Shown: positions 952-45,127 of the stretch, in pieces
How the letters are laid out: every line of letters begins with the position of its first letter
Numbering within the stretch: position 1 is the stretch's first letter
From: Thermovibrio guaymasensis
GTDB taxonomy: Bacteria; Aquificota; Aquificia; Desulfurobacteriales; Desulfurobacteriaceae
DNA length: 57,362 bases
NCBI RefSeq assembly: GCF_003633715.1
Contig: NZ_RBIE01000005.1
Coordinates: 1-57,362, forward strand
Reading direction: 5' to 3'
Notes under the pieces: model-generated
Databases searched by the model: none
The model's input: only the letters and a program-made list of their open reading frames with translations
Told to the model about the DNA's origin: nothing
Program-made: the position numbers and the translations under genes

Positions 952-1446
952 TTGAGAAAGGCAGTTTTCTTAGATAGGGATAATACTCTCATTTACGACC
1001 CAGGTTACATTCATGAGGTAGATAAGGTGAAGCTTCTTGATGGAGTAGGTGAAGGGTTAAAGCTCCTGAAAGAAGCAGGCTATTTATTAATTGTGGTTTC
1101 AAATCAGTCGGGAATAGGGAGAGGTTATTTTACAGAGAGAGAGTTTTGGGAAGTTAACTATAGACTTCAGGAGCTCCTTGAACACTTTAATGTCCAGATA
1201 GATGATTTCTTCTTCTGTCCCCACAGGCCTGGTGAAGGCTGCAAGTGTAGAAAACCCGGGACCCTTATGGTGGAAAAGGCCGTTGAAAAGTGGAAAATTG
1301 ATGTGAAAGAGAGTTTTGTAATAGGAGATAAGGACATTGACGTTGAGCTTGCTTTTAGGGCAGGCTGTAGAGGGGGTATAAAGGTGGGAGTGCCTTGTTT
1401 TGAGAACTTCTTAAAGGCGGCTAGTTTTATAGTGGGGGAAAAGTGA
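952..1446 (+). CDS. gmhB: HAD-family heptose bisphosphate phosphatase (GmhB-like)
   Basis: 164 aa HAD phosphatase of the histidinol-phosphate/GmhB group. Seen: nucleophile motif FLDRDNTL near residue 7, the SNQSG motif II segment, a zinc loop CPHRPGEGCKC, the RKP lysine segment, and the VIGDKDIDVE acidic motif. The family removes the 7-phosphate of D-glycero-D-manno-heptose 1,7-bisphosphate for lipopolysaccharide core heptose. A histidinol-phosphate phosphatase role cannot be excluded. The start is TTG at 952 behind GAGGGAGC. Its stop overlaps the GTG start of the next gene (GTGA), which indicates translational coupling. Confidence 0.8.
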   Translation: MRKAVFLDRDNTLIYDPGYIHEVDKVKLLDGVGEGLKLLKEAGYLLIVVSNQSGIGRGYFTEREFWEVNYRLQELLEHFNVQIDDFFFCPHRPGEGCKCRKPGTLMVEKAVEKWKIDVKESFVIGDKDIDVELAFRAGCRGGIKVGVPCFENFLKAASFIVGEK

Positions 1447-2618
1447 AGCTTTACAGTAAGATAAAAACGAGGCCCGAAGATTTTGTAGTTGAGGAAGTTC
1501 CCCTTTTAAAACCGGAAGATGAGGGAAAGTACCATTTATTAGAACTTAAAAAGAGAGATGTATCCACTCTTGAAGCTTTAAGGATTATCTCCCGCCTTGA
1601 GAAAATTCCCCTTAAGGATATAGGTTTTGCAGGTCTTAAAGACCGTTACGCCGTAACTACCCAGTACTTGACAGTTCCTGTTGAGTATTCCCTTGAGGAG
1701 TCCTGTTACAAAATCGTTAGGAACAGGTGGGTGAAAGTTGATAAGGTCAACTTTGATAAGGAGATGGGCTTCTGCATTAAGCCTATTGGGAAAGTTAATA
1801 GGCCTTTAGGATTGGGGGATTTAAAGGGTAATAAGTTTACCGTGGTTGTAAGGAACTTTGAGAAGAACTTAAGGGAGAGGTTTTACAGGAACTATGAAGT
1901 GGTAAGGAGGTACGGTTTTCCAAACTACTTTGGAGAACAGAGATTTGGAAGCGTTAAGAGTAGGGATGATTTTGTTTTGAGATACCTTCTCAGAGGGGAC
2001 TTTGATGGAGCTCTTAAGAGCTACTTTTTCGGTAAATCCCAAATTGACTTTTGGGGAGACTGGAAGAAGTTGTATAAGACTCTTTCTCCTGCTCTTGAAG
2101 AGTATGAGAAGGACCTCATAAGAGGACTTATGAGAGGCCTTACTCCTGAGAAAGCCTTTAGGATCCTTCCTAAAAACGTTAGACTTATGTTCAATTTTGC
2201 ATTTCAGAGCTTCCTCTGGAATGAGTTTTTAAGGGAGTACGTTGAAGAGAAGTATCCCTTCGTTAGAGTTCCTTTCATAAATAAGTGGAAACTTTCTTAC
2301 TTTTTGGAAGTTTACGATGTTGATTACCTGATTCAACTCCAGATTCCCTATACTGGTAGGGAGTTTCGGGTTAATGATGAAGTTTTAAAGGGCATAATGA
2401 AAAAGGTTTTTAGGAAGTACGGAATTAAAGAGGAGTGGTTTGACAAGGAAGTCGGTGGAATTATTGTTATGACAGATGGTTTAAGAAAAGCCGTTGTCTT
2501 TCCCGAAGGGTTTAAGATTTTGGAGAAGACGAAGAGGAGCATGAAGTTAACCTTCACGCTCCCACCAGGTTCATATGCAACTGTTCTTTTAAGGTTCTTA
2601 CTTAAAGGTAAGATATGA
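1443..2618 (+). CDS. truD: tRNA pseudouridine(13) synthase TruD
   Basis: 391 aa. It carries the TruD family signatures: the GFAGLKDRYAVTTQ motif near residue 62 with the catalytic Asp of LKDR, the NYFGEQRFG motif near residue 160, and a C-terminal PPGSYATVLLR segment. The family isomerises U13 of tRNA-Glu in bacteria and U13 or U35 in archaeal/eukaryal Pus7 relatives. The start is GTG, overlapping the previous stop by four bases. The end overlaps the convergent HDOD gene by 17 bases. A second, shorter TruD-like gene sits at 42427. This longer copy has the complete set of motifs and is the better candidate for the housekeeping enzyme. Confidence 0.92.
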   Translation: MKLYSKIKTRPEDFVVEEVPLLKPEDEGKYHLLELKKRDVSTLEALRIISRLEKIPLKDIGFAGLKDRYAVTTQYLTVPVEYSLEESCYKIVRNRWVKVDKVNFDKEMGFCIKPIGKVNRPLGLGDLKGNKFTVVVRNFEKNLRERFYRNYEVVRRYGFPNYFGEQRFGSVKSRDDFVLRYLLRGDFDGALKSYFFGKSQIDFWGDWKKLYKTLSPALEEYEKDLIRGLMRGLTPEKAFRILPKNVRLMFNFAFQSFLWNEFLREYVEEKYPFVRVPFINKWKLSYFLEVYDVDYLIQLQIPYTGREFRVNDEVLKGIMKKVFRKYGIKEEWFDKEVGGIIVMTDGLRKAVVFPEGFKILEKTKRSMKLTFTLPPGSYATVLLRFLLKGKI

Positions 2619-13487: not shown

Positions 13488-14019
13488 TTGAGGAGATTTC
13501 CCTTACAATCTCTTCAACGTCATCTTTCCTAACTTCCTTCCTTGTGGCAAAGTCCTCAACCCTTCCAGAGAGCCAAAAGAGGTACTTGGCGCCTTTAAAG
13601 TCCTTCCTCACTTTTCCCCTCATTACTGGTCTAAAGTAACCTATTGGCCTGCTCCAGAGAGTAACGTCTTCTGAACCGCAAACTTCACACTCTGTTTTCC
13701 TTCCGACCATCTTGTGGCCACAGGAGTTACATGTTGTTAAAAAGGGAGTTTTTGTTAAGTATTGAATTGGAAAGTTCTTTATTATTGAAAAGATTAACCT
13801 TTCCTGTTCTTCAGGCTTCATCTCCTCTGCGGTGAACAGGTGCATGATACTTCCGCCTGTAGCGTAGCTCTGGAAGTGAGAGTTTACGTCAATCTGCTTA
13901 AGGAGATCTCCTTCCTGAAAAGGAGCTTGAAACCCTGATGTTAGGAAGACCTTGCCACTATTTGGATCTCCGTTTACAAAGATTCTGGCTTTAACTCTCT
14001 TCTTACTAACAGTATTCAT
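13480..14019 (-). CDS. nrdD: Anaerobic ribonucleotide reductase NrdD, C-terminal chain (glycyl radical domain)
   Basis: 179 aa, equivalent to the C-terminus of class III RNR. Seen: ATGGSIMHLF (barrel finger region), a zinc site of two CxxC pairs (CNSCGH and CEVCGS), then SRPIGYFRPV, whose Gly is at the glycyl radical position. It has its own ATG at 14019 preceded by GGTGGAGG, and overlaps the upstream chain by 14 bases in another frame. A single-frame extension to 14055 exists but has no better start signal. Together the two chains give about 700 residues, the size of a one-piece NrdD without an ATP cone. The enzyme would have to assemble from two polypeptides or via a frameshift. Confidence 0.85.
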   Translation of the reverse strand: MNTVSKKRVKARIFVNGDPNSGKVFLTSGFQAPFQEGDLLKQIDVNSHFQSYATGGSIMHLFTAEEMKPEEQERLIFSIIKNFPIQYLTKTPFLTTCNSCGHKMVGRKTECEVCGSEDVTLWSRPIGYFRPVMRGKVRKDFKGAKYLFWLSGRVEDFATRKEVRKDDVEEIVREISSIT

Positions 14020-15562
14020 CTTCAACCTCCACCCTTTCAAAGAGATCTTCCCCAAACTTTGTTATTGCTTCCTTAACGAACAGGTTCAGGTAGGGGTCTT
14101 TAGAGATTTCTGGTTTCCTTTCGCCGTTGAGTATCTCTGCAACTGCGTTTGCAAAGGATATGTCCTTCTCTGCCATTTTGCAGGCAGCGTTTTCGCTGGG
14201 TGCGTATTCCAGGGAGTAGAGGACCCTGTCCTTTTCCATGAACTCGTGGAGTTTTTTATACAAGTACTGAGCAATCTGATGGGCGTAGTCCTTTGCCTCT
14301 TCGTTAAAGAGTCCACCTTTAAAACCTGCATTTACCATTCCTTCGTGGACTCCAACTACCGAGAAGATGTTAAAGAGCGATTTATCGTCCTTTTGGTAGA
14401 AGGAAAGGTAAGGAAAGAGGTCGTTCCAGTGTTTTCTTAGCCACTCTCTCTTCCTCTGGAGGGCTTTTGCTCCAACTTCCATTGTGTAATCAATCATCCT
14501 CTTTAAGAACTCAAAGTCGTCTTTTGCTAAAAAGAGGAGCCTGTTCATATTAATTGCGTAAACTCCTACTCCACCGACGCCGCTTCCAGAGTGAAACGGG
14601 TTTGAGCCGGTTACTGCCTCTACCTGGGAAATGTCAAAGAGCATTCTACAGCAGTTACTGTAGATCATTCCCTCGTCAAAAGGTTTTATGAATGGGTTTT
14701 TCTCTTTGTACTTTGAAGGTTTTGTGAAGGGTTCCTTAAGGTAGTTCTGAACGTAGAACCCTCCGAAGAATTCGCTCTCTTTAAGCAGTAGTTTCCAGGC
14801 TGGGTTGTTGCTGTCAAAGTCTTCAGTTATGTTTACCGTTATCAGCGGGAAGGTGAACGGGTTTCCGTCTGCATCTCCCCTTCTCATTGCCTTTATAAAG
14901 GCGGTGTTGATCCTGTCAAAGTAGTGGGAAGGGATTTTTTCATAGGTTATATTCAGTAATTTTCCTGCGTAGACTACCGGTTCGTACCTCAGACGGCTGT
15001 TTGGTTTTCCAAAGTCAAGTGTAATGTTTGAAAATGGAGAGTTTCCACTTCTAAATGGAAGGTTTATGTTGTAGAGGAATTCCTGCCACAGGTTTTCAAG
15101 CTCATAGTCGGAGTAGCTCTTCTTTCCCTCTTTTTCCAAGTAGTACAGGTAACCTGCAGCTACGGTTGATAGGTCGTTAAGGGAAGTAGCTCCGGAAACC
15201 TCCTGAGCTATGAGGCATATTAAGTTTGCACACTGCATAAAGAGAGTTTCCAGTCTCTTTGGAGGAGCCGCCTTCCTTTCGTTCTTTGCGTTGCTTTGAA
15301 GTCCATGGTATGCAATGTCCTTTGCGGATAATCCTATACAGTAAGCAGATAGCCTGTAGGTCTGGTGGTGGTATGCCCACCCCTCTTCATGGTGTATTCT
15401 CACTGGAAGGCCTTTATAGATAATGTCAAATAGGTAGTCTTTCATTACTTCGCCAACTACAACGTGCTCAAGGACGGGAACTCCTCTAACGAAGTTAGCG
15501 TTGTTCCTTGAGATGTCGTCGTTGTCTATGAAGAGCTCTATCAGTTTGAAGTACTTGTTCAT
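14006..15562 (-). CDS. nrdD: Anaerobic ribonucleotide reductase NrdD, N-terminal chain
   Basis: 518 aa, the ten-stranded barrel part of class III RNR. Seen: IHHEEGWAYHHQTYRLSAYC, SGATSLNDLS, FTFPLITVNITEDF (the metal/substrate loop), and MIYSNCCRMLFD, which holds the thiyl-radical Cys candidate. There is no N-terminal ATP cone, so dATP control through a cone is absent. The chain stops with VEVEDEYC just before the zinc/glycyl-radical segment, which is encoded in the next frame downstream. It is coupled to nrdG by a TAATG overlap. It reduces ribonucleoside triphosphates under anaerobic conditions, using formate or another reductant. Confidence 0.88.
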   Translation of the reverse strand: MNKYFKLIELFIDNDDISRNNANFVRGVPVLEHVVVGEVMKDYLFDIIYKGLPVRIHHEEGWAYHHQTYRLSAYCIGLSAKDIAYHGLQSNAKNERKAAPPKRLETLFMQCANLICLIAQEVSGATSLNDLSTVAAGYLYYLEKEGKKSYSDYELENLWQEFLYNINLPFRSGNSPFSNITLDFGKPNSRLRYEPVVYAGKLLNITYEKIPSHYFDRINTAFIKAMRRGDADGNPFTFPLITVNITEDFDSNNPAWKLLLKESEFFGGFYVQNYLKEPFTKPSKYKEKNPFIKPFDEGMIYSNCCRMLFDISQVEAVTGSNPFHSGSGVGGVGVYAINMNRLLFLAKDDFEFLKRMIDYTMEVGAKALQRKREWLRKHWNDLFPYLSFYQKDDKSLFNIFSVVGVHEGMVNAGFKGGLFNEEAKDYAHQIAQYLYKKLHEFMEKDRVLYSLEYAPSENAACKMAEKDISFANAVAEILNGERKPEISKDPYLNLFVKEAITKFGEDLFERVEVEDEYC

Positions 15563-30244: not shown

Positions 30245-31736
30245 GGTTATTAGTTATGCTACTTTGGGAATTGATGGAGTTAAGGTTGTAGTTGAAGTTG
30301 ACTCCTCAAGGGGACTCCCTTCAGTAGCAATTGTTGGTCTTCCAGATAGCGCTGTTAAGGAGAGCAAGGAAAGGGTAAGGGCTGCTGTAGTTAACTCCGG
30401 CTTTCCTTTTCCTCTAAGGAAGATTGTGGTTAACCTTGCTCCTGCAGATTTGAGGAAAGAGGGAACAGTTTATGACCTGCCTATAGCTTTGGGGATTCTT
30501 GCTTCCTCTGGAATCCTCAGCGGGGAGAAGCTTGGGAATTACATTATTGCCGGCGAGCTCGGGCTTGGTGGTGAGCTCCACCCGGTAAAGGGAGTTCTCC
30601 CTGCTGCAGTCTTAGTGAAGGAACTGAGTTTAAAGGGGTTAATCATTCCAGAGGATAACGTTGAGGAAGCCCTTTTAATAGAAGGGATTGATGTAATTCC
30701 TGTAAAGAGTTTGAAGGAGGCGGTTAATTTCCTCAATGGAGAGGTTGAGATAGAGCCGGCTAAGGGGAGTTCCCTACCTTCAAATCCTTCTTACTCTGTT
30801 GATATGGCAGATGTTGTAGGACAGTTTCAGGCAAAGAGGGCCCTTGAAATAGCTGCAGCAGGGAGGCACAACGTTTTTATGGTAGGTCCTCCAGGTTCTG
30901 GGAAGACGATGCTTGCAAGGAGGCTTCCTACGATAATGCCTCCGATGAGTTTAGAGGAGGTTATTGAAACCAGCCGAGTATACTCTGTTGCAGGCTTAAC
31001 TTCTGAAGTTCCAGTAGTTCAAAGGCCTTTTAGGGCTCCTCACTCTACTTCCTCAGATGCAGCAATCATCGGAGGAGGAAATGCGGTTAAGCCGGGAGAA
31101 GTAAGCCTTGCCCACAACGGAGTCCTCTTTATGGACGAATTCCCAGAGTTTAAGAGGAGCGTTTTAGAGGCTTTGAGGCAGCCCCTTGAAGATAGAGTAG
31201 TGACAGTTTCAAGAGCCTCTGGTTCTTACACTTTTCCTGCCGATTTCCTCTTAGTTGCAGCAAGTAATCCCTGTCCCTGCGGTTTCTACGGCTTTTCAGA
31301 CGGTAAAAACTACTGCCGGTGCTCTCCCGTCCAGATAAAACGCTATCAAGCAAAGCTTTCAGGCCCTATAATGGACAGGATAGATCTGAAAGTCAGCGTT
31401 CCTGCCGTTAAGCCGGAAGAGTTTAAGGACTCAAAGTCTGAACCTTCTGAAAGGATAAGGGAAAGGGTTATTAAGGCTTATGAAATTCAGAAGAGGCGCT
31501 TTAAGGGTTTAAGAATTTCCTTTAACGGCCAGATGGGTAGGAGGGTGATAAAGAAGTTCTGTAAGCTTGATTTTGAAGCTGAGGAGCTCCTAAATCGTGC
31601 CGTTTCCTCTCTAGGCCTTTCGGCCCGGGCTTACGACAGGGTTTTAAAGGTTGCAAGGACAATTGCGGACCTTGAGAGCTCCGACCTTATCTCCTTCCAC
31701 CACATAGCCGAGGCTTTGAGCTACAGGGAAGTTTAA
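30234..31736 (+). CDS. comM: ComM/YifB-family AAA+ ATPase (Mg chelatase-like)
   Basis: 500 aa. N-terminal part SKVISYATLGIDGVKVVVEVD, GLPSVAIVGLPDSAVKESKERV is diagnostic, followed by the AAA+ core: Walker A VGPPGSGKTMLARRLP, Walker B GVLFMDEFPEF, and the FRAPHSTSSDAAIIGGG arm. A C-terminal Mg_chelatase_C region ends the protein. ComM is a helicase that promotes branch migration during natural transformation. The start is TTG at 30234 and has only a weak ribosome binding site, so it may depend on the overlapping upstream gene. The last 50 bases overlap the convergent Nmad2-like gene. Confidence 0.9.
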   Translation: MVSKVISYATLGIDGVKVVVEVDSSRGLPSVAIVGLPDSAVKESKERVRAAVVNSGFPFPLRKIVVNLAPADLRKEGTVYDLPIALGILASSGILSGEKLGNYIIAGELGLGGELHPVKGVLPAAVLVKELSLKGLIIPEDNVEEALLIEGIDVIPVKSLKEAVNFLNGEVEIEPAKGSSLPSNPSYSVDMADVVGQFQAKRALEIAAAGRHNVFMVGPPGSGKTMLARRLPTIMPPMSLEEVIETSRVYSVAGLTSEVPVVQRPFRAPHSTSSDAAIIGGGNAVKPGEVSLAHNGVLFMDEFPEFKRSVLEALRQPLEDRVVTVSRASGSYTFPADFLLVAASNPCPCGFYGFSDGKNYCRCSPVQIKRYQAKLSGPIMDRIDLKVSVPAVKPEEFKDSKSEPSERIRERVIKAYEIQKRRFKGLRISFNGQMGRRVIKKFCKLDFEAEELLNRAVSSLGLSARAYDRVLKVARTIADLESSDLISFHHIAEALSYREV

Positions 31737-32436
31737 CCTTGTTACACGTATTTTGTTCTTGTTCTTCAAGACGGTTATTTATGGGGTTCCCGTGTTTTCC
31801 AAGTCCATACTCTTTTACAAGGGAGGATATGTAACTTTCTAATTCTGAAAATAGTTCTGGAAAGTTCTCCTGAGTACAATAACGAATGCCACGATTATTT
31901 AGGCAACGTAGGAACTTCTTGTTAAATTCAATGCATTTATCTCCAAAATAGAGGAATTCTTCGCAAATAAAAACCCTATTTCCCCAGATGTCTTGGATTA
32001 TAGCTCCATATTTTTCCTTTAATTTTTCATTCTTGAAAAATTCATCTACTTTAGAGACTGGGATATATGCTTCTTCATCTGGGATAGATTTAATGTCATG
32101 ATCGTGTCCTCTTATCCATTTCCAACTATTATTTTCTATATAGTAAACATTGTCTCCTTGAAGGTTTGAAGGTGAATACTTTTTATTTTCAAATCTTGGA
32201 TCATGGAAATATGAATCTAGGTCTAAAACCTCGCATACTTTCCCAGCATAAATTAAACATTGTTCAATCTCTAGGTGATAACCAGCCTTTTTTCTCTCTT
32301 CAGCTAGAGTTGTACCTTCTACTCCAATAATCCAATCTTCTTTTCCTATGTTTGCTCTTTGGTGATTTGGAGTACATGTAGCTAAAGTAAGGTAGTTTCC
32401 AAAAGGATTTGGAGCAAAACCAGTGTCCGATGTCAT
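31687..32436 (-). CDS. Orphan Nmad2-like protein (nucleotide-modification-associated domain)
   Basis: 249 aa. It starts MTSDTGFAPNPFGNYLTLATC and continues GKEDWIIGVEG, matching what I recall of the Nmad2 family, proteins found beside predicted base-modification systems in phages and bacteria. No methyltransferase, glycosyltransferase or nuclease is adjacent. The reading frame is more AT-rich than its neighbours. The ATG lacks a Shine-Dalgarno. In-frame codons upstream encode KKFLLYK immediately before MTSDTG, a segment that looks like the family's first beta strand, but no standard start lies there. The C-terminus overlaps comM by 50 bases. The gene follows aroC by 35 bases. Function unknown. 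Confidence 0.6.
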   Translation of the reverse strand: MTSDTGFAPNPFGNYLTLATCTPNHQRANIGKEDWIIGVEGTTLAEERKKAGYHLEIEQCLIYAGKVCEVLDLDSYFHDPRFENKKYSPSNLQGDNVYYIENNSWKWIRGHDHDIKSIPDEEAYIPVSKVDEFFKNEKLKEKYGAIIQDIWGNRVFICEEFLYFGDKCIEFNKKFLRCLNNRGIRYCTQENFPELFSELESYISSLVKEYGLGKHGNPINNRLEEQEQNTCNKVKLPCSSKPRLCGGRR

Positions 32437-41167: not shown

Positions 41168-41237
41168 TCTTCCTCCAGAATTGTTTTTCCTCTTTTGATG
41201 GCCTATCAATTATAAGACTCTTTTGGAGGTAGTTAAG

Positions 41238-42440
41238 TTGACGCTCTTTGAGAAGTTCTTCGAAGGAAGGGAGTTCATTTGGAAGCCAGGACTTGAGAGG
41301 GTAAGTTCAGCCGTAAGGGAATTTGGAGGGAAGGAATACCCTTCAGTAATTGTTGCAGGAACTAACGGTAAGGGGAGCACTGCCCTTTTAACTGCCGAGG
41401 CCTTAATGAAACAGGGCTTCCGTGTAGGTCTGTTTACTTCTCCCCACGTTTACAGGTTTAACGAAAGAATCAGAGTAAACCTTAAAGAAGTTAGCACTGA
41501 AGGGCTTGATGAAGCCTTTAAGGGTATTAGACCTTTAGTTGAGAGGTTTGAGCTTACATACTTTGAGGCTTCCCTCCTTTTAGCCCTTGAAGTTTTTAAA
41601 AGGGAAAGTGTTGACTGTGCAGTTTTTGAGGTAGGTCTTGGAGGGAGGCTGGATGCGACTAACGTTCTGGAACATCAGGTTGGACTTTTAACTAAGGTTT
41701 CCCTTGACCACAGAGGTTGGTTAGGGAATAGTCTTAAGGAGATTGCCGGGGAAAAGGTTGCAGTTTTGAAGGAGGGTATGGTTGGAGTATCACTTAGTAA
41801 CCCTTCTGAAGTTTTGAGGGTTTTAAAGGATAACTTTAGGGGAGAACTCCACCTCTACGGAAAGGACTTTTGGGCTGAAGGGGTAAGAGTGGGCCTTAAG
41901 GGAACAGAGTTCTTCTACATGGGGCAAATTCCCATAAGTTTGAGTTTAGTAGGTGACCACTACGCCGAAAACGGGTGTGGGGCTATAAGGGCGGCTCAGG
42001 TTTTGACTGAGAGGTTTTTGGGGAAGAAGTTCCTTATTCCGAGGGAGTTTAGTTCACTTCTTCCGGGAAGGTTTGAGGTTTTTAGAGAGGCTCCTCCCTT
42101 CATCTTTGATGGGGCCCACAACGGCCAGGCCCTGAGAGCTCTCTTTAATACCTTGAAAGAGCTCGGAATAAAGGCTTCGGTAATCTTTGGAGCTTTTAAG
42201 GACAAGGAGCTTGAGGACAACCTGAAGGAGATTAAGTCTTACCTTGACTACTCGGGAGGAGATTTCTTCTCAGTATCCCTTCCTCCTCCCCGGGGCCTTT
42301 CTGCACAGGAGCTCTTAGAGAAGGCCAAAGAGTTAGGTTTAAAAGGAAGAATCCTTAAAGAGGTAAGGGTTTCAGATTTTAAAGATCCTGTAGTTCTAAC
42401 CGGTTCTTTCTACGTTGGAGGTTTAGTTGAGAGAAGTTAA
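41238..42440 (+). CDS. folC: Folylpolyglutamate synthase / dihydrofolate synthase
   Basis: 400 aa Mur-ligase fold. P-loop VIVAGTNGKGSTAL, GLFTSPHVYRFNERIRVN, FEVGLGGRLDATN (catalytic region), and FDGAHN. It adds glutamate to folates and, in many bacteria, to dihydropteroate. I set the start at TTG 41238, seven bases after GGAGGT; a TTG at 41223 lies before that site. It overlaps the next gene by 14 bases. Confidence 0.93.
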   Translation: MTLFEKFFEGREFIWKPGLERVSSAVREFGGKEYPSVIVAGTNGKGSTALLTAEALMKQGFRVGLFTSPHVYRFNERIRVNLKEVSTEGLDEAFKGIRPLVERFELTYFEASLLLALEVFKRESVDCAVFEVGLGGRLDATNVLEHQVGLLTKVSLDHRGWLGNSLKEIAGEKVAVLKEGMVGVSLSNPSEVLRVLKDNFRGELHLYGKDFWAEGVRVGLKGTEFFYMGQIPISLSLVGDHYAENGCGAIRAAQVLTERFLGKKFLIPREFSSLLPGRFEVFREAPPFIFDGAHNGQALRALFNTLKELGIKASVIFGAFKDKELEDNLKEIKSYLDYSGGDFFSVSLPPPRGLSAQELLEKAKELGLKGRILKEVRVSDFKDPVVLTGSFYVGGLVERS

Positions 42441-43308
42441 GTTCCTTTGGAAGAAAAGAGAGGCTGAGGACTTTATAGTTAAAGAGATTTCTGAGTTTGA
42501 AATTGATGAGGAAGGAAGCCACTACCTCTACCTCCTTGCAAAGAGGAATTACACAACGAGGGAAGTTTCAAAGAGGTTTAACCTTTCCTATGCAGGTATG
42601 AAGGATAAATTTGCATTGACCTTTCAGAAGGTATCTTCCTCAGAGTTTTTAGGGAATTTAATTTCAGAGAAAGAAGACCAAAGGTGGTTTATTCTAAAGT
42701 TCTTAGGGAAGATTAGAAGGAAAGTTAAGATCGGACAGCTAAAGGGTAACAAGTTCGCCGTAAAGGTTGAAGGTTTTAACTTTAAAGAGAGGAAAGCCTT
42801 TATAAACTACTACGACGTTCAGAGGATAGGTGGAAACTGGTTTAGGGGAAAGGAGCTCCTTAAGAGGCTCCTTGATAAACCGAGAAGGAGGTTAAAGTGG
42901 AGTGAAAACCTCCTCCTTGACTCTTACCTATCTTACCTTTGGAACAGGAGTTTGGAGCTCTACCTCATTGATAGGTTTACAGGCTATTACATTTTTGACG
43001 GAGAGGAAAGGTTCTTCATACCTGAAAGTTTAGAAGAGAGAATTGATGGACTTCCGAAGTTCTGGACTGTTCTGGGCTATAAGAAAAAGCTCCTAACTTC
43101 TGCTCTTTACTACCGGGAGGTTTTAAAAGGGGAAGGGTTCAGTCTAGATGAAGTTTTGGAGGGCTTGAGGGCTTTGGGAATTAAAGGGGACTACCGTATG
43201 ACCTACGTCCTTGTTAAGGACTTTAAAGTAATTGGGAAGTACGCCTTCTTTTTCCTTCCCAAGGGATCTTTTGCTACCATGTTCTTAAAACACATTCAGG
43301 CGGTTTAA
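42427..43308 (+). CDS. Second TruD-like pseudouridine synthase, shortened
   Basis: 293 aa, about 100 shorter than the truD at 1443. It keeps the core motif YAGMKDKFALTFQ with the catalytic Asp, the QLKGNKFAVKVEGF segment, and the end PKGSFATMFLK, but the NYFGxQRFG motif reads NYYDVQRIGG and the inserted TRUD domain is much reduced. It is a likely paralogue with a different RNA target or an inactive partner. TTG start at 42427 within folC. Neighbours are folC, a PflX-like enzyme and a dihydrouridine synthase, another tRNA modifier. Confidence 0.85.
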   Translation: MREVKFLWKKREAEDFIVKEISEFEIDEEGSHYLYLLAKRNYTTREVSKRFNLSYAGMKDKFALTFQKVSSSEFLGNLISEKEDQRWFILKFLGKIRRKVKIGQLKGNKFAVKVEGFNFKERKAFINYYDVQRIGGNWFRGKELLKRLLDKPRRRLKWSENLLLDSYLSYLWNRSLELYLIDRFTGYYIFDGEERFFIPESLEERIDGLPKFWTVLGYKKKLLTSALYYREVLKGEGFSLDEVLEGLRALGIKGDYRMTYVLVKDFKVIGKYAFFFLPKGSFATMFLKHIQAV

Positions 43309-43309
43309 A

Positions 43310-44170
43310 GTGGAGGGAACGGTAGAGAAACTTTACTCCTTTATATCTCCCTGTAGGCTCTGTCCTAGGGAGTGTTTATCAAAGAGGAGTGAAGGGGAAC
43401 TGGGTTTCTGTAGGGTTACCGATGAACCTATGGTTTCATCCTTTGGCCCCCACTTCGGAGAGGAGCCCGTTTTAGTAGGCTACGGGGGGAGCGGAACTAT
43501 CTTCTTTACAGGTTGCAACTTAGGGTGTGTCTTCTGTCAAAATTACCAAATTTCCCACCTTATGGAAGGGGAGTACATTTCACTTTCAGACTTAGCCGAT
43601 ATTATGCTCCACCTTCAGGAAAGGGGGTGCCACAACATAAACCTGGTTACTCCAACCCATCAGGTTCCCCAGATATTTGCAGCCGTTGATGAGGCAAGGG
43701 GTAAAGGCTTAAAACTTCCAATAGTTTATAACTGTGGAGGTTATGAGAGCCTAGAGGTGCTAAGGGAGCTTGAAGGGCTCGTTCAGATTTACATGCCAGA
43801 TTTTAAAACCTTAAGCAGGGAGTTTGCAGCCAAGTACTTAAAAGCTCCAGATTATCCAGAAGTCGTTAAAGAAGCCCTCCTTGAAATGCACAGACAGGTA
43901 GGGGACCTTGAGGTTAACGAGTTTGGAATAGCGAAAAAGGGCCTGATTGTTAGACACCTTGTAATGCCAAACTGGGCTGAAGACAGTAAGGCCGTCTTAA
44001 AGTGGATTGCGGAAAACCTTGGGAGGAATACCTATACAAACGTTATGGATCAGTACTATCCCTACTACAAGGCCTGCGACTATCCTGAGATATGCAGGAG
44101 GATAACGCCTGAGGAGTTTGAAGAGGTTTACTCCTTCGCTAAGAGGTTGGGATTGAGGCTTGCAGTTTAG
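43310..44170 (+). CDS. PflX-like radical SAM protein (COG1313 type)
   Basis: 286 aa. A first cysteine cluster, CRLCPRECLSKRSEGELGFC, is followed by the radical SAM CxxxCxxC motif in FFTGCNLGCVFCQNYQISH. LVTPTHQVPQI and MDQYYPYYKA are further family segments. Related to pyruvate formate-lyase activating enzymes, but the substrate of this group is unknown. GTG start at 43310, one base after the TruD-like stop. Confidence 0.85.
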   Translation: MEGTVEKLYSFISPCRLCPRECLSKRSEGELGFCRVTDEPMVSSFGPHFGEEPVLVGYGGSGTIFFTGCNLGCVFCQNYQISHLMEGEYISLSDLADIMLHLQERGCHNINLVTPTHQVPQIFAAVDEARGKGLKLPIVYNCGGYESLEVLRELEGLVQIYMPDFKTLSREFAAKYLKAPDYPEVVKEALLEMHRQVGDLEVNEFGIAKKGLIVRHLVMPNWAEDSKAVLKWIAENLGRNTYTNVMDQYYPYYKACDYPEICRRITPEEFEEVYSFAKRLGLRLAV

Positions 44171-44179
44171 GAGGTTTCT

Positions 44180-45127
44180 GTGCTTAAGATAGAGAGGGAA
44201 GTTATCCTTGCTCCTATGGCAGGTTACACTCACTCGGCCTTCAGGCGTCTTGCCAGGGAGCTGGGGGCAGATAGAACCTACTCGGAGCTCATGAACGCAA
44301 CCGGAATTATCCATAGGGGAGATGAGAGGGAGCTCTCCTACTTCACCGATTTAGAAAGGCCCATTCACCTTCAAGTTTACGGCAGGAATCCCGAAGAGGT
44401 GGCCCAAGCTTCAGAGATTCTCGTTAAGAAGTACAGGCCGGATGCGATAGACATAAACTTTGGGTGTTCAGTTAAGAAGGTCCTAAAGGCAAAGGCTGCA
44501 GGTTATCTCCTTCAGTTCCCAAAGGAAATGGGCAGGATCGTTGAGGAGACAGTTAAGGCCTTAAAACCCTATAAAGTTCTGGTAACCGCCAAGATAAGAC
44601 TCGGGTTTTACGAGGACAACTTAGAGGAGATTGCAGAGAACCTCCTGTCTGCTGGAGTTTCTGCAATAGCCCTTCACGGAAGGACCGCTAAGCAAGGTTT
44701 TTCAGGTAAGGCCAACTGGGATAGAGTAAGGGACCTTAAAGAGATGGCTGGAAAGGTTCCGGTGATAGGAAGTGGTGATGTGAGGGACTGGAAAGAGGTG
44801 GACGTAAAGTTTGAAGAAACAGGTTGCGACGGTATAATGATTGGAAGGGCTGCAGTTTCAAATCCCTGGATATTTAAGGAGTACAGGGAGAAGAGGGACA
44901 TTGAAGTTAAACTTCCCGAAAGGGTTGACTTTATCCTTAGGGAACTTAGTATGATGTGGGAGTTCTTTGAGAGGGAGAGGGCTTGTAAAGTGATAAAGGC
45001 CCACATTACTCAGTTATTTAAAGGCATAAGGGGAAAGGCCAAGCTGAACGACTCTGTTATGAGGAGTAAGAGCTGTGACGAGCTTATAAGCAACCTTTTA
45101 AGGATAAAGGAGGAATTTTCGCCTTAA
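44180..45127 (+). CDS. dusB: tRNA-dihydrouridine synthase (DusB-like)
   Basis: 315 aa FMN-dependent barrel. APMAGYTHSAFRRLARELGA opens the domain; DINFGCSVKKVLKAKAAGYLL carries the catalytic Cys, with Ser instead of the usual Pro after it; VTAKIRLG, LHGRTAKQGFSG, GSGDV and MIGRAAVSNPWIF are FMN and RNA contacts. It reduces uridine to dihydrouridine in the tRNA D loop. GTG start follows TTTAGGAGG. Confidence 0.93.
   Translation: MLKIEREVILAPMAGYTHSAFRRLARELGADRTYSELMNATGIIHRGDERELSYFTDLERPIHLQVYGRNPEEVAQASEILVKKYRPDAIDINFGCSVKKVLKAKAAGYLLQFPKEMGRIVEETVKALKPYKVLVTAKIRLGFYEDNLEEIAENLLSAGVSAIALHGRTAKQGFSGKANWDRVRDLKEMAGKVPVIGSGDVRDWKEVDVKFEETGCDGIMIGRAAVSNPWIFKEYREKRDIEVKLPERVDFILRELSMMWEFFERERACKVIKAHITQLFKGIRGKAKLNDSVMRSKSCDELISNLLRIKEEFSP

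Follow-up and report, generated by a model that had tools for sequence, protein, structure and literature searches.

The window analysed here, the whole 57,362-nucleotide stretch of DNA from Thermovibrio guaymasensis, carries on its forward strand (positions 42427..43308) a gene for a compact TruD-superfamily protein, a predicted pseudouridine synthase of 293 amino acids that is designated S below. This assignment is based on the match of S to the Pfam TruD profile, a structural model, its orthologues and a set of invariant residues. We infer that S is active, acts on RNA without a partner and has a separate site; the complete reading, in which S is an active, stand-alone, compact RNA pseudouridine synthase with its own site, is held with about even confidence. 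Activity and stand-alone action, taken by themselves, seem quite probable, and the leading guess is that S would modify another RNA site than the long TruD. Known TruD/PUS7 enzymes act on uridine in a UNUAR context, and E. coli has one TruD gene and one tRNA site for it, Psi13 of tRNA-Glu. No paper on such a compact TruD gene appeared among the open-licence PMC papers listed.

The reading frame of S begins with a TTG codon immediately 3' of an in-frame TAG, and a probable ribosome-binding site, GGAGG (42417..42421, + strand), was read directly five bases 5' of this TTG. The upstream gene, folC (41223..42440, +; 268 bits against TIGR01499, cut-off 162.65), overlaps S by 14 nt. Directly 3' of S lies a gene for an AmmeMemoRadiSam/NrdG2-like radical SAM protein (43310..44170, +), which scores 41.5 bits against TIGR04337, far under the cut-off of 220, followed by a gene for a DusB-like tRNA dihydrouridine synthase (44180..45127, +; 253.9 bits against TIGR00737, cut-off 293.3). 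Besides dusB, the neighbourhood of S in the window includes infB and, as judged by their sequences, rpsO and pnp. By net charge, S ranks third among the 42 ORFs of the window. Two other products of the window, both encoded on the reverse strand, are a short NRDD-type ribonucleotide reductase of 518 amino acids (14006-15562), which is under every NCBIfam equivalog cut-off, and a protein with an Nmad2 nucleotide-modification-associated domain (31687-32436; 108.7 bits), which has no NCBIfam match.

Two TruD-like genes had been recognized in the window by the sequence-only reading, and both are present; counting S as the second was nevertheless too few, since the entire 1.6-Mb genome, at 99.98% completeness, was found to hold three, encoding proteins of 391 (A), 366 (B) and 293 (S) amino acids. 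A is the long TruD of the window (1443..2618, +); it contains NYFGEQRFG and scores 229.5 bits against the Pfam profile and 190.5 bits against TIGR00094 (cut-off 172.2). B, which contains NYYGEQRF and was found by the genome search, lies outside the window at ~244.9-246.0 kb of contig C2 (G000; loci L002 and L127), on a stretch that also carries an IMP-dehydrogenase-like ORF. Both long proteins belong to the same superfamily as S and have the same motif residues, but they form separate clades. Each retains the segment that follows the QR motif, and at the marker position discussed below each carries Gly. S scores 81.4 bits against the Pfam TruD profile (PF01142; cut-off 27), well within the superfamily, and 83.2 bits against the NCBIfam Psi13-synthase equivalog TIGR00094, under its cut-off of 172.2. 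S is therefore not filed as a Psi13 enzyme, and to name it after E. coli TruD would, given this score, mis-state its function.

The distribution of S was counted by hand in 121 genomes, including T. guaymasensis, from five families (f1-f5), of which f1 and f3 probably correspond to Desulfurobacteriaceae and Hydrogenothermaceae and f4 is, at a guess, Aquificaceae. The nearest named S records come from MAGs of Desulfurobacteriaceae, Thermovibrio, Desulfurobacterium, Persephonella and other Hydrogenothermaceae. S was found in 50 of the 121 genomes: 20/22 in f1 (one a fragment), 2/2 in f2, 21/34 in f3, 0/56 in f4 and 7/7 in f5, where the count includes G098, represented by a fragment only. Phylogeny had been proposed as a check for a clade-wide duplication, and the results support S as a distinct TruD type that forms one clade and is conserved clade-wide among these heat-loving bacteria. 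A long TruD accompanies S in 43 of the 50 genomes, and S is the sole TruD found in the other seven, four of them 97-99% complete (G025, G066, G082, G096) and three 71-89% complete (G078, G106, G117); G100 carries a short C-terminal piece that was left without a TruD type. B-type genes were recognized by score in 18 of 22 f1 genomes, nine of them represented on the tree. Both f2 genomes have a B-like gene, and in one of the two (G022) there are four TruD-like ORFs, of which three are long and the other is S (L136, L137, L138, L139). Eleven of the 56 f4 genomes have a long TruD without S. With a profile search across 136 genomes of the phylum, six more S-bearing f3 genomes came to light; the f4 matches listed in that search reached at most 74 bits and lay inside long TruDs. 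One of the six additions, from a Persephonella MAG (G134; L062:4382-5238), has a broken reading frame and represents either a pseudogene or a sequencing error. Two different S genes in a Desulfurobacterium MAG (G019, 85% complete, 3% contamination; L045:7001-7873 and L046:2549-3337) reflect either a true duplication or mixed strains. S is missing from 13 of the 34 f3 genomes and from the entire f4 set of 56, so the site that it serves must be dispensable.

The order folC, S, radical SAM gene is conserved in 8 of 11 f1 loci (L037-L044); the exceptions are L064, with an S fragment and the radical SAM gene ~0.9 kb off, L045, without either neighbour, and L046, a short contig. Twelve neighbours from the window were sought at 17 S loci outside f1 and none was detected there, apart from a weak match to a GGDEF protein in L055, while ten neighbours of S identified in f2 and f3 are mutually unrelated genes. 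A fixed partner gene of S was rejected on these grounds.

The sequence-only reading had described a retained catalytic Asp motif and NYYDVQRIGG at the place of NYFG, and both are present in S, which contains the motifs AGMKDKFALTFQ and NYYDVQRIGG. The landmarks of the protein are D60 in AGMKDK, N127-YYD-QR133, KGDYR257 and LPKGS-AT284; D60, N127 and Y129 correspond to D80, N129 and F131 of E. coli TruD. Across 31 aligned proteins, 27 of them S and 4 from f5, residues E20, K59, D60, Q67, N127, Q132, R133 and R257 are invariant (31/31), so that all aligned proteins have the catalytic Asp in GxKD as well as the conserved N and QR. At the marker position, 130, Asp is present in 25/27 S and 4/4 f5 proteins; the remaining two S carry Gly there, as do 42/42 A, B, f2-long, archaeal, E. 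coli and Xanthomonas rows. The NYFG glycine is accordingly missing from S of the window and from 29/31 S proteins overall; in our view it is a motif letter and does not define the superfamily.

An AlphaFold2 model of S, built from 22 sequences, has a mean pLDDT of 94.0, a pTM of 0.87 and no residue below 70. A lack of folded-domain integrity, which had been named as grounds for refutation, is thus not seen in the model. Structural alignment with VIA-align gave a Z of 17.4 for each of human PUS7, E. coli TruD and M. mazei TruD (258-261 residues, rmsd 3.5-4.0), and the match to E. coli TruD (1sb7) covers 258 residues at chain positions 17-340 with an rmsd of 3.8. The predicted structure contains both domains of the two-domain TruD fold, and S would therefore be a compact TruD rather than an insert-less one. 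The earlier statement that it lacks most of the inserted domain proved largely wrong, because the model can be aligned with E. coli TruD over its full length. In the stretch from the QR motif to the WN helix, S is missing ~53 amino acids relative to A (10+5+38) but only ~12 relative to E. coli TruD. Elsewhere, S is without segments of 9, 17, 12 and 5 amino acids present in A, and the remaining differences from E. coli TruD are gaps of 5-10 amino acids and longer tails.

Comparison with the known enzymes places this trimming in context. E. coli TruD (1sb7, 1si7, 1szw) shares with S the whole fold, the GxKD, Q, N and QR residues and a comparably short stretch following the QR motif. It differs in having NYFG where S has NYYD, in being neutral where S is basic, and in possessing 9 amino acids after residue 51, 10 after 119, 12 after 159 and several smaller pieces that S does not have. 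The top PDB sequence matches of S are M. mazei TruD (1z2z) and human PUS7 (5kkp), with E values of 4e-20 and 7e-18. Human PUS7 and the archaeal TruD/Pus7 proteins are much longer than S, which is missing segments of 16-38 amino acids found in the archaeal row. Argonaute and ACT-domain PDB rows that appeared at low Z are unrelated and were set aside.

In a tree of 76 TruD rows, S forms one clade (95/82), which is joined with f5 at 100/99; B forms another (100/98), and the A rows group with one another, two f2 genes being nested among them. The position of S in one clade apart from both long types indicates that it is old and is no recent shortened or degenerate copy of A. S is also a real gene, with an ORF, a ribosome-binding site and evidence of purifying selection: comparison with the G001 orthologue (75% identity) gave a pN of 0.161 and a pS of 0.73, similar comparisons gave 0.164 and 0.68 for A (G003 orthologue) and 0.247 and 0.64 for B (G001 orthologue), and in all of these the direction alone counts, because synonymous sites are near saturation.

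In 43 of the 50 S genomes a long TruD from a different ancient lineage is also retained, and on this ground S is taken most likely to have a site of its own. Retaining a two-domain TruD fold from which several peripheral segments have been trimmed, it would bind structured RNA, most likely tRNA, and would turn one uridine into pseudouridine via Asp60 with no help from the long TruD; its site would most likely not be U13 of tRNA-Glu. ARAGORN, applied to loci around 42 tRNA matches, identified 41 distinct tRNA genes in T. guaymasensis, among which UNUAR at positions 11-15 is restricted to the two tRNA-Glu genes. The same sequence occurs in the anticodon arm of tRNA Tyr, Arg(UCU), Thr(UGU) and two Lys genes, and one tRNA-Met has it in the acceptor arm. 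The candidate sites of S that fit UNUAR are U35 of tRNA-Tyr and U36 of tRNA-Lys, tRNA-Arg(UCU) and tRNA-Thr(UGU). Passages of a review attribute Psi13 to TruD and Psi35 of tRNA-Tyr to archaeal Pus7 in general (PMC6313347). A selenocysteine tRNA gene near a tRNA cluster (L185, contig C2 of G000) indicates that the organism probably uses selenocysteine.

The pI of S proteins is 9.38-9.90 and that of A and B is likewise high, compared with 7.8-8.3 for a pair of plasmid TruDs considered below, 6.4 for E. coli TruD and a median of 6.2 for eight archaeal TruDs. Basic charge was rejected as a sign of an RNA substrate, as E. coli TruD acts on tRNA at a pI of 6.4; it is a trait of the lineage, since the long Aquificota TruDs are basic as well. 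The idea that S stands in for another pseudouridine synthase was likewise rejected: TruB (PF01509) is present in 114/121 genomes and in 88/88 near-complete ones, and in f3 each genome has 3-5 matches to PF00849 (RluA/RsuA family) whether S is present (21 genomes) or absent (13 genomes).

Against the preferred reading stand the score of S under the Psi13 equivalog cut-off, the altered motif (Asp130 in 29/31) and the dispensability of its site. It is possible, though on balance unlikely, that S performs the usual TruD function of making Psi13 in tRNA-Glu, being redundant with the long TruD or interchangeable for it. The single tRNA modified by TruD in E. coli is tRNA-Glu, the UCUAG context at positions 11-15 of this tRNA is intact in all six S-only genomes read, and loss of the long type from such genomes would fit interchangeability. 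For Vibrio, too, passages of one report name tRNA-Glu as the single tRNA modified by TruD (PMC12588516). U13 is, however, present in 28/28 genomes read for tRNA-Glu, including 11/11 TruD-less ones (a 29th, G031, had no tRNA-Glu in the examined locus), which made it uninformative as a co-evolving target. Since U13 stays intact without any TruD, it is no sign of the enzyme, and gene sequence cannot show Psi13 formation by S. Retention of the long TruD in 43/50 S genomes and the distinct motif and segment structure of S also argue against the ordinary role. That S binds RNA and has lost modification, serving as an accessory subunit, RNA chaperone or assembly factor, is very doubtful. Its trimmed segments and altered motif would suit such a function, and TruD homologues were matched as chains in trypanosomatid mitoribosome assembly intermediates (Z 11.7-13.3); yet the motif residues are all retained in the 31 aligned S proteins, and no long partner was found in seven of the 50 S genomes, four of them at least 97% complete. 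These same observations disfavour the accessory subunit offered by the sequence-only reading.

A role outside RNA modification has to be considered in view of the possible relatives of S. The tree joins S to plasmid TruDs of Gloeothece and Mesorhizobium at 99/92 and, less surely, a second divergent TruD of Methanolobus psychrotolerans (400 aa, NYFDSQRFG, L065:6983-8185) to this group at 92/86; among 100 genomes of its phylum, M. psychrotolerans is the sole one with two separate TruD genes at an E of 1e-10. Both plasmid TruDs compared and the second Methanolobus TruD share the Asp-for-Gly marker with 25/27 S and 4/4 f5 proteins, versus 0/42 other TruDs, and the plasmid pair shares FINYYDxQR and ATM near the C-terminus with most S. 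The pair differs from S in retaining segments that S does not have, in being nearly neutral and in its gene surroundings. On two Mesorhizobium plasmids (L171:10231-18241, L173:8246-15623), truD lies beside genes for an aminotransferase, a radical SAM protein and a 2OG-Fe(II) oxygenase, with a methyltransferase named in one record and a carbamoyltransferase-domain protein in the other, and these clusters have a malayamycin-like C-nucleoside look. As far as an excerpt shows, the pathway proposed for malayamycin uses TruD, and the enzyme kinds listed for it include those of the Mesorhizobium clusters (PMC8724604). Around the Gloeothece gene are genes for glycosyltransferase, phosphatase and sulfotransferase proteins. 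PumJ of the pseudouridimycin pathway is termed TruD-like and said to occur in diverse microbes in part of one source (PMC7955054), and part of another treats its substrate as an open question (PMC10127198). The TruDs of C-nucleoside pathways were represented here only by the Mesorhizobium and Gloeothece plasmid proteins. No viral relatives were detected in two scans of viral contigs, one with S and one with the NYYD trio, and the Gloeothece TruD had no match in a phages collection.

Such a kinship might mean that S belongs to a TruD lineage whose substrate is free or small-molecule uridine, as with the TruD-like enzymes of pseudouridimycin and malayamycin, but this is highly improbable. A clade of all Aquificota TruDs is not rejected (AU p 0.178), a result compatible with an origin of S by local duplication of A inside Aquificota even though S is grouped elsewhere in the tree; because the plasmid and Methanolobus rows are also long branches, the kinship is unproven. 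In the genomes searched, the Mesorhizobium TruD matches A, a long Aquificota type, better than S. No C-nucleoside cluster surrounds S, which lies beside folC, radical SAM and dus genes in f1 and beside unrelated genes at the sampled f2 and f3 loci, and two S proteins have Gly at position 130. A broader proposal, which unites these observations with a separate RNA site, is that a deep second TruD lineage marked by NY[YF]D, spread over plasmids, thermophiles and a methanogen, left Psi13 of tRNA-Glu for another RNA site in Aquificota and for free or small-molecule uridine in antibiotic clusters. This appears distinctly unlikely; if it were true, S, the smallest member seen here, would show what a minimal TruD is.

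The presence of three TruDs in a 1.6-Mb genome contrasts with the one gene and one tRNA site of E. coli and Vibrio. S is compact and widespread in its phylum, and in some genomes it is the sole TruD found. Should it be active, it would be a small, probably heat-stable enzyme with which to study the choice of uridine by TruD/PUS7 enzymes, and the species in which S is the only TruD make this question testable by a single pseudouridine map.
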